Positions 14,188 to 17,414 of a stretch of 58,563 nucleotides of DNA are shown here, piece by piece. The stretch covers positions 1 to 58,563 of the forward strand of contig CACDIK010000005.1 of NCBI GenBank assembly GCA_902553005.1, given 5' to 3'. This stretch comes from an uncultured Alphaproteobacteria bacterium. GTDB lineage: Bacteria; Pseudomonadota; Alphaproteobacteria; HIMB59; GCA-002718135. A model generated the notes under the pieces. It was not told the DNA's origin. It was given only the letters and a program-made list of their open reading frames with translations, and did not search any database. The first letter of the stretch is position 1. Each line of letters begins with the position of its first letter. A program made the translations under genes and the position numbers.

Positions 14188-15339
14188 ATGGGAAGAAGAT
14201 TAAAACTTGGGATGATAGGTGGTGGCCAAGGAGCTTTTATTGGAGCCGTGCATCGTCTATGCGCAAGGATGGATGATAAGTATGAATTTGTTGCTGGTTG
14301 TTTATCTTCAACTCCTGAAAAAGCTGCTAAGTCTGCTGAAGAAATTGGCCTTGATCCCTCAAGAAGTTACCCTGATTTTAAAACTATGGCTGAAGAAGAA
14401 TCTAAAAGAGATAACGGCATTGAAGTAGTATCCATTGTTACACCAAATCATATGCATGCTGCACCAGCAATAGAATTTCTAAGTAAAAATATTCATGTTA
14501 TTTGTGATAAACCTATGACTTCTACAATGGAAGATGCTCATAAATTAGTTGAAGCAGTCTCTAAATCTGATGCTCATTTTTTCTTAACTCATAATTATTC
14601 CGGATATCCAGTTGTTAGGGGTATGAGATCAATTATTGAAAATGGAGTGCTAGGCAAAATAAGAATTATTAAAGGATCTTATCTTCAGGGTTGGCTTGGC
14701 TCAAAAGAAGAAGACTCAGGTTCTAATAAACAAGCAGAATGGAGAACTGATCCTTCAAGAAGTGGAGCTGCAGGAAGCGTGGGTGATATAGGTAGTCATG
14801 CAATGCATTTGTTAGAATTTATAACCCAATTAAAATTACAATCAGTTAGTGCAGATCTAACTACTTTTGTTGAAGGAAGAAAATTAGATGATGATGCTTC
14901 TATAATGATCAGATTAAATAATGGTGCTAAGGGATCATTATCCATCTCTCAAGTTGCAACAGGTGAAGAAAATAATTTTAGTGTTGCTATTTATGGTGAC
15001 AAGGGTGCATTGAAATGGAGTCAAGAAAATCCAAATTATGCAACATTTAGTCAAGTAGGGGAGGCGAGTCAGATAATAACTAGAGGTGGTTCGATTAAAG
15101 TTGAAGGAAGTGAAGCTAATGTCCGAATCCCTGCAGGTCACCCAGAAGGATATCTTGAGGCATTTGCACAAATCTATTCAGATGTTGCAGATGTTATTCA
15201 AAATAAAGATAATAAGGAAGAATTATTAAAGATGCTTCCAAATATTGATGATGGTTTGCACATAATGAAATTTATTAATGCTACTGTAGATTCGAGCAAT
15301 AATAATTCTAAGTGGATAAATTTATCTGAAATAAATTGA
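14188..15339 (+). CDS. Gfo/Idh/MocA family oxidoreductase
   Basis: This is an NAD(P)-dependent sugar or polyol dehydrogenase. The 383-residue protein has an N-terminal Rossmann fold (GMIGGGQGAFIGAVH, about residues 8-22) and the family motif CDKPMTST (about residue 108), whose Lys-Pro follows the cofactor site. The C-terminal substrate domain includes the conserved GSVGDIGSHAMHLLEF helix with the catalytic-type Asp and His. AAGGAG at 14177-14182 sets the start. It forms a two-gene unit with the upstream TIM-barrel protein and ends just before the amtB leader. Confidence 0.92.
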   Translation: MGRRLKLGMIGGGQGAFIGAVHRLCARMDDKYEFVAGCLSSTPEKAAKSAEEIGLDPSRSYPDFKTMAEEESKRDNGIEVVSIVTPNHMHAAPAIEFLSKNIHVICDKPMTSTMEDAHKLVEAVSKSDAHFFLTHNYSGYPVVRGMRSIIENGVLGKIRIIKGSYLQGWLGSKEEDSGSNKQAEWRTDPSRSGAAGSVGDIGSHAMHLLEFITQLKLQSVSADLTTFVEGRKLDDDASIMIRLNNGAKGSLSISQVATGEENNFSVAIYGDKGALKWSQENPNYATFSQVGEASQIITRGGSIKVEGSEANVRIPAGHPEGYLEAFAQIYSDVADVIQNKDNKEELLKMLPNIDDGLHIMKFINATVDSSNNNSKWINLSEIN

Positions 15340-15370
15340 TATTTTAGCAGTTTTATTAGTTATTTTTATA

Positions 15371-15387
15371 TATGCAAATATTGCATA
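15371..15387. promoter_or_regulatory. 17-bp inverted repeat upstream of the amtB leader
   Basis: TATGCAA and TTGCATA flank a 3-base centre. The arms pair perfectly over 7 bp. The site is 32 bases past the Gfo/Idh stop and about 58 bases before the first riboswitch aptamer, where an operator or the amtB promoter would be expected. It could also be a weak AT-rich transcript end for the upstream gene. The spacing does not match an NtrC site. Confidence 0.35.
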
Positions 15388-15441
15388 CCAATATTCTCTT
15401 AAATATTCTTACTAAAATTTAATAATAAACTAATTCATTCA

Positions 15442-15498
15442 TTACGTTCATCACTCTTTTGGGGTGACGGAAGTAGACGAAAGTCGAAGGAACGCATG
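15442..15498 (+). ncRNA. Glutamine riboswitch (glnA RNA), first aptamer
   Basis: This is the first of two aptamers in the amtB leader. P1 pairs CGTTC (15445-15449) with GAACG (15490-15494). P2 pairs TCACTC (15451-15456) with GGGTGA-type bases up to 15467. The conserved core CGGAAGTAG is at 15468-15476. P3 is GAC-GAAA-GTC (15476-15485), followed by CGAAGGAACGC. These core blocks and the three-way junction match the glnA RNA consensus as I remember it. glnA RNAs bind L-glutamine and control nitrogen genes in cyanobacteria and in marine metagenomic sequences. The call rests on motif recall plus visible pairing, not on a covariance-model search. Confidence 0.9.
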
Positions 15499-15510
15499 CA
15501 AAGTTATAAA

Positions 15511-15563
15511 TCGTTCAATTTGCCCTTAGGCGAATCGGAAGTAGGTTAAACCGAAGGAACGCG
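15511..15563 (+). ncRNA. Glutamine riboswitch (glnA RNA), second aptamer
   Basis: A second copy of the same architecture starts 13 bases after the first. P1 pairs CGTTC (15512-15516) with GAACG (15557-15561). P2 pairs ATTTGCC (15518-15524) with GGCGAAT (15529-15535) around a CTTA loop. The core TCGGAAGTAGG spans 15535-15545. P3 is GGT-TAA-ACC (15544-15552), then CGAAGGAACGC. The P2 and P3 stem sequences differ completely from the first aptamer but still pair, while the unpaired core is identical, which is the expected pattern for two functional copies. Confidence 0.9.
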
Positions 15564-15578
15564 GATCTTAGTAATTAA

Positions 15579-15650
15579 TTTCCATAGCTAAGCATGAAAA
15601 GTAACGCATGACTCAATGTGAGCCATGTACTGTGAAATTTATAATGGAGG
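15579..15650 (+). promoter_or_regulatory. Possible expression platform sequestering the amtB ribosome binding site
   Basis: TTTCCAT (15579-15585) can pair with ATGGAGG (15644-15650), which includes the amtB Shine-Dalgarno GGAGG; two of the seven pairs would be G-U. In the intervening loop a local hairpin pairs CATGACTCA (15607-15615) with TGAGCCATG (15619-15627) with one mismatch. No hairpin followed by a T-run is seen between the aptamers and the gene, so control of translation is more likely than termination. The pairing is proposed from reading the sequence only. Confidence 0.45.
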
Positions 15651-15654
15651 ATTA

Positions 15655-16941
15655 ATGTTAAAAAAATCTATATATTTCATTAGCATTATTGCTGTCTTTA
15701 TGCTCTTTAGTTCATATGCAAGAGCAGAAGTTGATGGTGAAGTGCAATACATTTTAAATACATTCCTATTTCTTGTATCTGGGTTCTTAGTCATGTGGAT
15801 GGCAGCAGGATTTGCAATGCTTGAATCAGGACTTGTTACGTCCAAAAGTGTAGCAACAATTGCTGCAAAAAATATAGGCTTATATTCTATTGCTGGTTTA
15901 ATGTTCTGGTTAGTTGGATATAATATGGCATATGGTATTCCTGCAGGTGGATTTATAGGATCTCCAATTCCTTGGAGTGATGGTAGTGCTCTTGATACAG
16001 GTTATTCAGATGGTTCTGACTGGTTTTTTCAGATGGTATTTTGTGCAACAACATGTTCAATTGTATCTGGAACACTAGCTGAACGAATTAAAATTTGGCC
16101 ATTTTTTATTTTCTGTGCTTTATTAACCGGTTTCATTTATCCAATCGAAATGGGTTGGCAGTGGGGTGGAGGATACCTAGCGGAAGCAGGTTTCTCAGAT
16201 TTTGCTGGTTCAACTTTAGTACATAGTGCAGGAGCAGCAGCAGCACTTGCTGGTGCAATTTTGTTAGGTCCAAGATTAGGACGTTTTACTGATAGTGGTG
16301 AAGCAGCACCTATGGAACCTTTTGCAAATTCATCAATTCCTCTTGCAACTTTAGGTGTATTTATCCTATGGCTTGGATGGTTTGGATTTAACGGTGGATC
16401 ACAATTAGCTATGGGTACATTTGATGATGTAACAGCAGTAGCAACAATATATATTAATACTAACCTGGCAGCTGGTGCAGGTGTAATGGCTTGTGCAGTT
16501 ATTTCTAGATTAGTAACTGGTAAAACAGATGTAGTAATGATGCTTAATGGTGCATTGGGTGGTCTTGTAGCAATAACTGCTGAACCATTAGCCCCATCAC
16601 CAATCCTCGCAATAATCATTGGTGCAGTTGGTGGATTAATTGTCTTCTACGGTACTAGACTTTTAATATCTCTAAAAATTGACGACGTTGTTGGTGCAAT
16701 TCCTGTACATGGTTTTGCTGGAATTTTTGGAACATTAGTTGTTCCAATTTCAAACAGCGCAGCAAGTTTTGGTGCACAACTTTACGGTATAATAGCAATT
16801 AATGTTTTCGTTTTTGTTGTATCATTTATTATTTGGTACATAATGAAAATGCTCTTTGGTATTAGAATCAGTGAAGAAGCTGAAAAACTTGGTACTGATA
16901 AATCTGAAGTAGGCGTAATGGCTTATAGCATCAGAGACTAA
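15655..16941 (+). CDS. amtB: Ammonium transporter
   Basis: AmtB-type channel for ammonium uptake across the inner membrane. I chose ATG 15655, four bases after GGAGG (15646-15650), giving 428 residues. The in-frame ATG at 15625 would add ten residues inside the leader RNA. A signal peptide (about residues 1-24, ending SSYARA) is followed by eleven or so helices. Landmarks are GFAMLESGL, the twin-His positions in TLVHSAGAAAA and PVHGFAGIFGT, and LGWFGFNGGSQLA. No glnK (PII) gene follows it, unlike in most proteobacteria. Two glutamine aptamers in its leader imply repression or activation by the intracellular glutamine level. Confidence 0.97.
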   Translation: MLKKSIYFISIIAVFMLFSSYARAEVDGEVQYILNTFLFLVSGFLVMWMAAGFAMLESGLVTSKSVATIAAKNIGLYSIAGLMFWLVGYNMAYGIPAGGFIGSPIPWSDGSALDTGYSDGSDWFFQMVFCATTCSIVSGTLAERIKIWPFFIFCALLTGFIYPIEMGWQWGGGYLAEAGFSDFAGSTLVHSAGAAAALAGAILLGPRLGRFTDSGEAAPMEPFANSSIPLATLGVFILWLGWFGFNGGSQLAMGTFDDVTAVATIYINTNLAAGAGVMACAVISRLVTGKTDVVMMLNGALGGLVAITAEPLAPSPILAIIIGAVGGLIVFYGTRLLISLKIDDVVGAIPVHGFAGIFGTLVVPISNSAASFGAQLYGIIAINVFVFVVSFIIWYIMKMLFGIRISEEAEKLGTDKSEVGVMAYSIRD

Positions 16942-16947
16942 TGAATT

Positions 16948-16985
16948 TAGTGATTAGCATATCAACTCCTTATAGTTGGTCACTA
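16948..16985 (+). repeat. Nested inverted repeat after amtB
   Basis: TAGTGA (16948-16953) pairs with TCACTA (16980-16985), and inside it CAACT (16963-16967) pairs with AGTTG (16974-16978). It sits seven bases past the amtB stop and just before a second, GC-richer hairpin. Together they form a compact transcript end or a 3' stabilising structure. Confidence 0.5.
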
Positions 16986-16990
16986 AAAAT

Positions 16991-17010
16991 GGGAGAGCAT
17001 TTGCTCTCCC
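16991..17010 (+). terminator. Probable terminator hairpin after amtB
   Basis: GGGAGAGC and GCTCTCCC form a perfect 8-bp stem with an ATTT loop, the most GC-rich hairpin in this part of the window. The T-tract on the plus strand is poor; on the minus strand the stem is followed by ATTTTTAG. It probably ends the amtB transcript, perhaps together with the preceding inverted repeat. Confidence 0.6.
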
Positions 17011-17039
17011 AAGCTTGCTAAATATTAGTGAGACTTTTT

Positions 17040-17414
17040 ATGACTGAAGCAGAAATAATAAAAGAAAAAAAAAGAAACATATATTCAAGCTTTTTCTCTG
17101 AAGATTATGTCTCTAAATTTTTATTTAAATCAATTTTACACCATGTTATCTCTTTAGAAATATATGAAAATAATAAATTGAATGGAATTTCATTTGAAAC
17201 TATTTGTGGAAACATACCTAAGTCGATTGGTTCTAGATCATCCATTCAATCAATTTTAAACGAAGCTTTAGAAAAAAATATCTTTGTAAAAGAGCAAAGT
17301 AAGTCAGATAAAAGAATTAAAAATTATTATCTAAGTAATAATTTTCTTGATATGATTAATACTTGGTTAAGAAAAGAGGGTTCATTTTTTAGGAAGATGA
17401 GTTTAGAAAATTAA
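17040..17414 (+). CDS. Putative winged-helix (MarR-like) DNA-binding protein
   Basis: The product is 124 residues from the ATG at 17040; the in-frame GTG at 17028 would add four residues. It is mainly helical and charged. The C-terminal half (SIQSILNEALEKNIFVKEQS then DKRIKNYYLSNNF) reads like the recognition helix and basic wing of a MarR/PadR-type winged helix, in which the wing carries D-x-R and a following strand. No ligand domain is apparent. It stands alone after amtB and before a small basic protein, so it may regulate one of these, but nothing in the sequence proves it. Confidence 0.65.
   Translation: MTEAEIIKEKKRNIYSSFFSEDYVSKFLFKSILHHVISLEIYENNKLNGISFETICGNIPKSIGSRSSIQSILNEALEKNIFVKEQSKSDKRIKNYYLSNNFLDMINTWLRKEGSFFRKMSLEN

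Follow-up and report, generated by a model that had tools for sequence, protein, structure and literature searches.

A tandem glutamine riboswitch with a candidate shared switch element precedes amtB in an uncultured alphaproteobacterial genus

INTRODUCTION

The GlnD-PII-GlnE/NtrBC system, a protein modification cascade, reads glutamine and sets ammonium uptake and glutamine synthetase. We examined a 58,563-base stretch of DNA (the window), contig 5 of a 1.03-Mb genome that is 57% complete, in which two adjacent RNA aptamers stand in front of an ammonium transporter gene. A preliminary description of this sequence had proposed that the pair binds glutamine and replaces the usual PII/Ntr logic. 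The locus raises two questions: do the two aptamers work as one switch or as two, and has RNA taken over glutamine sensing from protein in this organism?

In kind, such an arrangement is known. The glnA RNAs are described as targeting ammonium transporters, glutamine synthetase, and PII, and tandem copies have been noted (PMC2864571). The published account of tandem glutamine riboswitches gives 157 doublets and 4 triplets (PMC9481103), and phage glutamine riboswitches have also been described (PMC9004378). Since both the doubling of the aptamer and its association with ammonium transporters have been published (PMC2864571 and PMC9481103), the basic finding is not new, and we focus here on what connects the two aptamers and on the genus in which they occur.

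RESULTS

Two glutamine aptamers precede amtB

The only matches in the window to reach the gathering threshold of any Rfam family were two copies of the glutamine riboswitch (RF01739; curated gathering score, 35 bits). Aptamer 1 occupies positions 15443-15498 of the + strand (62.1 bits, E 2.3e-11), with its P1 helix at 15445-15449/15490-15494, and aptamer 2 occupies 15510-15565 of the same strand (57.0 bits, E 5.8e-10), with P1 at 15512-15516/15557-15561. Both copies thus score well over the threshold in the covariance-model search that the preliminary description had proposed as a check. The extent given there, 15442-15563, ends within two bases of the model at either side, but the element as we define it below runs on to about 15597. 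Downstream lies a gene for a 428-residue ammonium transporter (15655-16941, +; PF00909, 327.7 bits), so that the proposed tandem of glnA-type aptamers in an alphaproteobacterial amtB leader holds. The gene most plausibly starts at the ATG at 15655, behind a GGAGG Shine-Dalgarno sequence read at 15646-15650 (+), rather than at the mechanically listed ATG at 15625.

Both copies share the core segments CGTTCA, CGGAAGTA, and GAAGGAACGC, and both carry the RF01739 consensus at the core positions of P1 and the junction. The G and C of the linchpin pair can be read directly in the window; the segments that contain them, CGGAAGTA and GAAGGAACGC, were invariant in 39 aligned leaders, in a set whose search pattern largely demanded both. 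The P2 and P3 sequences are unlike between the two copies, with pairing kept in each. When we aligned 26 homologous leaders, 98.2% of the cells of the whole structure were paired, compared to 23.6 to 37.2% with the partners slid. P1 was paired in 100% of cells in both aptamers, and P2 and P3 in 91.0 to 100% with changes on both sides. Such both-side changes were found at 15 pairs among the 26 leaders, every one in P2 or P3. One of five measures, the number of further pair types, did not go beyond shuffles (58 of 500 shuffles were as high for the 26 leaders). The earlier observation of an identical core with different but paired P2 and P3 is therefore confirmed by direct reading and by covariation, and the homologous leaders keep the structure. 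The window carries a genuine tandem glutamine riboswitch of a known kind, with glutamine as the probable ligand judging from the aptamer sequence.

The leader offers few other control signals

Both + strand terminator-like sites that we found lie within amtB and none lies in the leader, and for this reason intrinsic termination was dropped as a mechanism. A search of 15330-17030 for sigma-70-like promoters gave none, against an average of 7.5 in shuffled sequences, and inspection by eye gave no second start site between the aptamers. The expression platforms seen therefore amount to one box and start region, with no + strand terminator-like site, although a hidden platform could remain.

Further upstream, the window has a palindrome, TATGCA-N5-TGCATA (15371-15387, no strand assigned), which recurs in other leaders. 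The exact form TATGCN7GCATA stands within 125 nucleotides 5' of aptamer 1 in 16 of 35 amtB leaders and 18 of 19 ATP-grasp leaders, but in none of the 29 glnA leaders and none of the 5 single-aptamer leaders, always at 56 to 59 nucleotides from P1 of aptamer 1. Near-matches were seen by eye in several other amtB leaders. Exact sites number 2 to 4 per genome in 10 genomes, and both sister-family genomes searched have one site 5' of an amt gene. The palindrome is likely the operator of some regulator, judging from its recurrence and position. Since it also lies upstream of amt in the sister family, transcriptional control may be older than the riboswitch and may act alongside it. Three genus genomes have an additional site, in front of what appears by eye to be a glycosyltransferase-like gene.

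On the other side of amtB, the preliminary description was right that no glnK follows: the window has no PII gene 3' of amtB, and the next open reading frame, scanned as 17043-17414, has no Pfam match. In its longer form (17028-17414, 128 residues), this frame has the look of a small winged-helix regulator by eye. A similar frame precedes a second riboswitch-controlled amtB in some related genomes.

The linker and a distal box form one conserved element

The linker that joins the aptamers has its complement in a conserved box past aptamer 2 (all positions on the + strand). In helix H1, linker strand CATGC (15495-15499) pairs with GCATG (15592-15596), and the five pairs are standard in 26 of 26 leaders. 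In helix H2, linker strand AGTTAT (15502-15507) pairs with ATARCT (15584-15589). The box, ATAGCTAAGCATG (15584-15596), provides the 3' strands of both helices and is kept across the amtB, glnA, and ATP-grasp leaders. Linkers in the genus read GCATGC-A(n)-AGTTAT with few exceptions, and in all three target classes a box like ATA(A/G)CTA-n-GCATG follows 14 to 21 nucleotides past the last core base of aptamer 2, while the sequence from aptamer 2 to the box varies among the classes. We collected 145 such composites, 146 to 161 nucleotides in length, from the window, from the stretches fetched around riboswitch places in the relatives, and from 80 of 119 listed genome-contig loci. Because many genomes are present in both sets, duplicates occur, and 116 composites are unique.

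Neither part was seen without the other. Among the 128 tandem places in the matches listed (119 genome-contig loci), our pattern found linker and box together in 90, neither in 38, and one alone in none. The same pattern found no composite at 111 tandem places in 119 viral loci. In 26 representatives from amtB, ATP-grasp, and SAR116 leaders, the linker-box helix was 99.3% paired. Of its 11 pairs, however, 7 never vary, 3 vary on one side (e.g., U-G to U-A), 1 shows losses only, and none changes on both sides. The helix is conserved rather than covarying, and with almost no covariation in H1 and H2, conservation for some other reason is possible.

The complementarity itself is strong. Mean linker-box duplex energies were -11.4 kcal/mol in 52 amtB, -10.9 in 42 glnA, and -10.5 in 22 ATP-grasp leaders, compared to -3.1 to -3.4 kcal/mol for shuffled boxes, and the mean fraction of shuffles as good was 0.001 to 0.002. 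The internal loop changes length jointly on both sides (AAA/AGA in glnA versus AA/AA in amtB leaders); in ATP-grasp leaders it is an asymmetric 1x2 loop. A composite covariance model was trained on 26 amtB, ATP-grasp, and SAR116 leaders and scored on 69 loci, of which L039, L130, and L180 were in the model. It gave 95 to 123 bits for 33 glnA-type leaders outside the training set, compared to 50 to 80 bits for tandems lacking the box and 31 to 51 bits for single aptamers. Across 398 phylum-wide genomes (strict filters), it matched only the window's own genome. We conclude that the linker and the box beyond aptamer 2 belong to one element of 146 to 161 nucleotides, which looks new.

The element precedes three gene sets in the genus

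A second tandem pair in the window's genome (C8:45066-45186, -) lies between the PII gene (C8:45249-45569) and glnA, which encodes a 476-residue protein (PF00120 and PF03951). Among 61 relatives, 36 had RF01739 matches; these were 36 of the 37 genomes of the same genus (all but G015) and none of the 24 of the sister family. We fetched 80 stretches around riboswitch places among the matches listed, and together with the window these contain 88 such places, 83 tandem and 5 single. By their downstream sequence, 35 tandems belong to amtB, 29 to glnA, and 19 to the ATP-grasp gene, again among the matches listed. One single (L090) is what remains of a pair at the end of a contig; the other four are true singles.

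In the genus loci that were read, the riboswitch precedes amtB, glnA (behind the PII gene), or an ATP-grasp/Alpha-E/transglutaminase operon. The last of these encodes CP_ATPgrasp_2, Alpha-E, and transglutaminase-core proteins at the one locus scanned (L040). This genus riboswitch regulon looks new. Inspection by eye of the ATP-grasp leaders (L040 about 985-1049, and similar ones) showed a short, poorly conserved upstream reading frame running from the tandem to the ATP-grasp start; its end at that start suggests translational coupling. One genus genome (G034) has a 706-residue ammonium transporter that carries a long additional C-terminal region (L397:563-2683, -).

PII is kept, and GlnD and GlnE are not found

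As first worded, the proposal that the tandem replaces PII/Ntr logic is not supported with respect to PII; it is supported once amended to the partners of PII that sense glutamine and modify enzymes. PII itself is retained: 30 of the 37 genus genomes, including that of the window, have one PII gene each, compared to 23 of 24 sister-family genomes, 18 of them with two. In 28 of these 30 genomes, a listed riboswitch follows immediately 3' of the PII gene; of the two exceptions, G034 lacks this arrangement, and for the gene of G035 there is no partner among the matches listed. GlnD, on the other hand, was found in 0 of 37 genus genomes versus 24 of 24 in the sister family (23 over the cut-off and one just under), and GlnE in 0 of 37 versus 22 of 24. 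The genus genomes are 55 to 89% complete, and it is not plausible that incompleteness alone accounts for misses in all 37, although a very divergent homologue could be missed.

The picture for NtrC is less direct. Its cut-off was passed by none of the 61 genomes, yet by just 1 of 14 control genomes. Long matches to the NtrC model occur in 25 of 37 genus genomes (174 to 216 bits, open frames of 444 to 463 residues), while scores in the 24 sister genomes do not exceed 81 bits. All three full-length genus proteins scanned fit NtrX best (398 to 414 bits against a cut-off of 600, versus 190 to 222 for NtrC). We considered NtrX as a possible factor acting on the upstream palindrome.

With GlnD and GlnE not found in the genus, much of its glutamine sensing may fall to RNA. 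Loss of GlnD is not bound to riboswitches everywhere: 10 of 20 genomes reached via other riboswitch loci have GlnD, among them one of two SAR116 genomes. In all three sister-family loci inspected, amtB has a PII gene immediately upstream. Our tentative reading, to which we give a little less than an even chance, is that the genus replaced GlnD and GlnE by a composite riboswitch regulon (amtB, glnA, and a peptide-ligase-like ATP-grasp operon) of OFF type with C15495 as its single switch base, that PII would be kept without its modifying enzyme, and that the amtB riboswitch would stand where the sister family has a glnK-amtB pair.

Related leaders occur in other lineages

Among the matches listed, most named contigs that carry such tandem leaders bear the label of uncultured Alphaproteobacteria. 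In the family of one SAR116-labelled locus (L130), three of five genomes have the tandem, all three with linker and box before a PF00909 gene. An AmtB tree of 16 rows, with long branches, joined the SAR116 and genus proteins in a group of 11 rows (98/99) that does not include the glnK-linked AmtB of the sister family; the motif filter left four of the 18 input loci, all type-B amt, without a row. Shared ancestry or transfer of these amtB genes may be weakly inferred from the sequences.

Some gammaproteobacterial contigs, several of them SAR86-labelled, have another linker and carry the tandem before glutamine synthetase. Such tandems were noted at L156, L195, and L205, the latter two Pfam confirmed (PF00120 matches downstream of 59.0 and 66.9 bits, respectively). 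Triplet aptamers were seen at L140, L149, and L198, which are labelled SAR86, Gammaproteobacteria, or Pseudomonadota, and triplets and tandems with these labels often have a conserved linker hairpin.

Among 385 alphaproteobacterial genomes (strict filters), RF01739 occurred in six, two of the genus and four of another family (f10). The latter have single copies directly before a reading frame of the ATP-grasp kind (four loci). As a side observation, five f10 loci (L119, L120, L121, L122, and L404) have a single riboswitch before a circularly permuted ATP-grasp gene. The full ATP-grasp, Alpha-E, and transglutaminase set lies downstream at the one f10 locus scanned (L404).

In viruses, 119 IMG/VR contigs (L249-L367) match the tandem glutamine-riboswitch pattern. 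In many of them, the 3' flank of the last aptamer and the Shine-Dalgarno sequence form a short hairpin that seems by eye to covary (CATCT/AGATG and CAATCT/AGATTG).

Folding supports a proposed competition for the box

The 5' edge of the box overlaps a further segment, TTAATTTCCAT (15575-15585, +), which is complementary to the Shine-Dalgarno and start region of amtB; the predicted duplex between the box region and the start region in the window is -9.3 kcal/mol. Because of this overlap, linker-box and box-start pairing should compete, and we propose one shared translational switch. In this model, the linker (15495-15507) would pair with the box (15584-15596) in a helix closed around aptamer 2 and leave the start site free (ON), while box-start pairing would close it (OFF).

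To explore the model, we folded 116 leaders (52 amtB, 42 glnA, and 22 ATP-grasp) from aptamer 1 to the start codon. Unconstrained, the linker-box helix was in the best fold of 41/52 amtB, 3/42 glnA, and 20/22 ATP-grasp leaders. Since unconstrained folds mis-fold the aptamers, the aptamer helices were enforced in later runs, and the helix was then present in 51/52, 2/42, and 22/22, respectively. Blocking the linker raised the mean box-start probability from 0.12 to 0.78 in amtB and from 0.14 to 0.84 in ATP-grasp leaders; the openness of the Shine-Dalgarno sequence fell from 0.58 to 0.19 in amtB leaders and that of the AUG from 0.56 to 0.09 in ATP-grasp leaders. The glnA leaders prefer box-start pairing even with the aptamers formed, and the box covers their start codon by default (AUG openness, 0.03).

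Box-start pairing is less well supported than the linker-box helix, and in these calculations it beats shuffled start regions modestly: the mean fraction of shuffles as good was 0.055 for glnA, 0.17 for amtB, and 0.40 for ATP-grasp leaders. It is weak in some leaders (-4.2 kcal/mol at L045 and -4.9 at L130), and ATP-grasp boxes pair better with amtB start regions (-7.9 kcal/mol) than with their own (-7.1).

What might move the box from one partner to the other? A short helix below P1 reportedly melts upon ligand binding (Ren et al., 2015). In the solved aptamer, binding is described as inserting G23 into P1, where it pairs with C60 as the linchpin (PMC11477058), and C60 is the C directly after P1 in the printed construct (PMC5393176). 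By position in that construct, C15495 corresponds to C60 (PMC5393176), and it is also the first base of H1. When the equivalent of C15495 alone was left unpaired, the fraction with linker-box pairing dropped from 0.90 to 0.42 in amtB and from 0.88 to 0.29 in ATP-grasp leaders. Glutamine bound at aptamer 1 would draw C15495 into the G-C linchpin pair and may in this way loosen the linker-box helix; the freed box would then close the start, turning amtB off when glutamine is plentiful.

Two other structures were set aside. An extended P1 of aptamer 1 was considered as the structure that hides the linker; the 5' flank is not conserved. RNAalifold, run on 75 unique composites, returned a strand-swapped fold: the P1 strands, which are identical in the two aptamers, trade partners. 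We did not take this fold as native but keep it as a possible ligand-free state in the ON alternative discussed below.

DISCUSSION

Direction of control and alternative explanations

We consider it somewhat more probable than its alternatives combined that the two aptamers and one box form a composite glutamine riboswitch that controls amtB translation and is turned off by glutamine. That glutamine turns amtB off rather than on is the direction we favour. In Pseudomonas putida, the homologous ATP-grasp gene PP_2688 is described as up on nitrate versus ammonium, with a promoter that responds to nitrogen limitation (PMC8050072), which fits OFF control by glutamine.

The same composite could work in reverse: glutamine would stabilize both native P1 helices and leave the linker free to take the box, so that amtB is turned on. 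This is the strongest competitor, though we think it unlikely. Published glutamine riboswitches of both types, cyanobacterial ones among them, are said to activate on glutamine (PMC6316151), and the energy model also leans this way: in amtB leaders the strand-swapped fold averages -50.7 versus -47.1 kcal/mol for the native fold and closes the start site (mean Shine-Dalgarno openness, 0.20 versus 0.58), in a comparison that is not like for like, with 5 pairs enforced in the swap versus all aptamer pairs in the native fold, no ligand term, and no tertiary contacts. However, it would be physiologically odd for abundant glutamine to switch on glutamine synthetase and the uptake of ammonium, and the response of PP_2688 to nitrogen limitation (PMC8050072) points the other way.

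Considerably less probable is a pair of ordinary, independent riboswitches whose linker-box complementarity has no switching role. Tandem glutamine riboswitches have been called pseudo-cooperative (PMC9481103), and the linker-box helix does not covary. Against this, linker and box are either both present or both absent across the three targets and SAR116, their complementarity is far above that of shuffles, and the leader has neither a + strand terminator-like site nor, by eye, a start site between the aptamers. Two aptamers may give a steeper response, as the preliminary description suggested; an anatomy of one shared box and one start site differs from that of two independent switches. Finally, riboswitch variants whose cores stay close to the consensus are a known phenomenon, but a ligand other than glutamine is very improbable here: both copies carry the conserved RF01739 positions in P1 and the junction, and amtB and glnA are nitrogen-assimilation genes. 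The ATP-grasp gene, in turn, has the nitrogen-responsive homologue (PMC8050072).

Relation to known systems

The tandem glycine riboswitch has two aptamers, one ligand, one expression platform, and a structured linker, which pairs with the leader 5' of aptamer 1. The composite glutamine element resembles it in that two aptamers for one ligand would feed one platform; it differs in its aptamer and in a linker that pairs downstream of aptamer 2. With the type 1 glutamine riboswitch, or glnA RNA (RF01739), it shares the aptamers, core sequence, P1-P3 fold, and nitrogen targets, whereas the shared linker-box helix past aptamer 2, the alphaproteobacterial host, and the proposed OFF direction set it apart from the reported activating examples. 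The published tandems likewise have two adjacent aptamers and associations with ammonium transporter, glutamine synthetase, and PII (PMC9481103 and PMC2864571). They are described as pseudo-cooperative, apparently with multiple expression platforms, whereas here one box and start region seem shared, and neither a linker-box helix nor the present hosts are among the features described in the accessible text of those reports. Compared to the GlnD-PII-GlnE/NtrBC cascade, the genus keeps PII, and GlnD and GlnE were not found in its 37 genomes.

In the open-access literature, judged by titles and abstract openings among the matches listed, no paper appears to concern this composite or the loss of GlnD with it. 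A term search of the main text of the AEGEAN-169 paper (PMC10308909) found neither "riboswitch" nor "PII." The shared linker-box platform, set in a genus without detectable GlnD or GlnE, is the new and testable part of this work.

Implications

Glutamine-riboswitch associations are now placed in an uncultured alphaproteobacterial genus, in SAR116 (amtB), and, for glutamine synthetase, in gammaproteobacterial contigs of which some carry a SAR86 label. A link to glutamine emerges for the ATP-grasp/Alpha-E/transglutaminase operon, and a second alphaproteobacterial family shows the same link with one aptamer only. The linker-box element offers a concrete design in which two aptamers serve one switch. 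Should the proposed mechanism be true, this would be a glutamine riboswitch of natural OFF type in which one base, C15495, is the shared switch. With neither GlnD nor GlnE detected in the genus, whether RNA replaces the standard protein cascade for glutamine sensing in a streamlined cell becomes directly testable, and in this genus RNA may have taken over that role.
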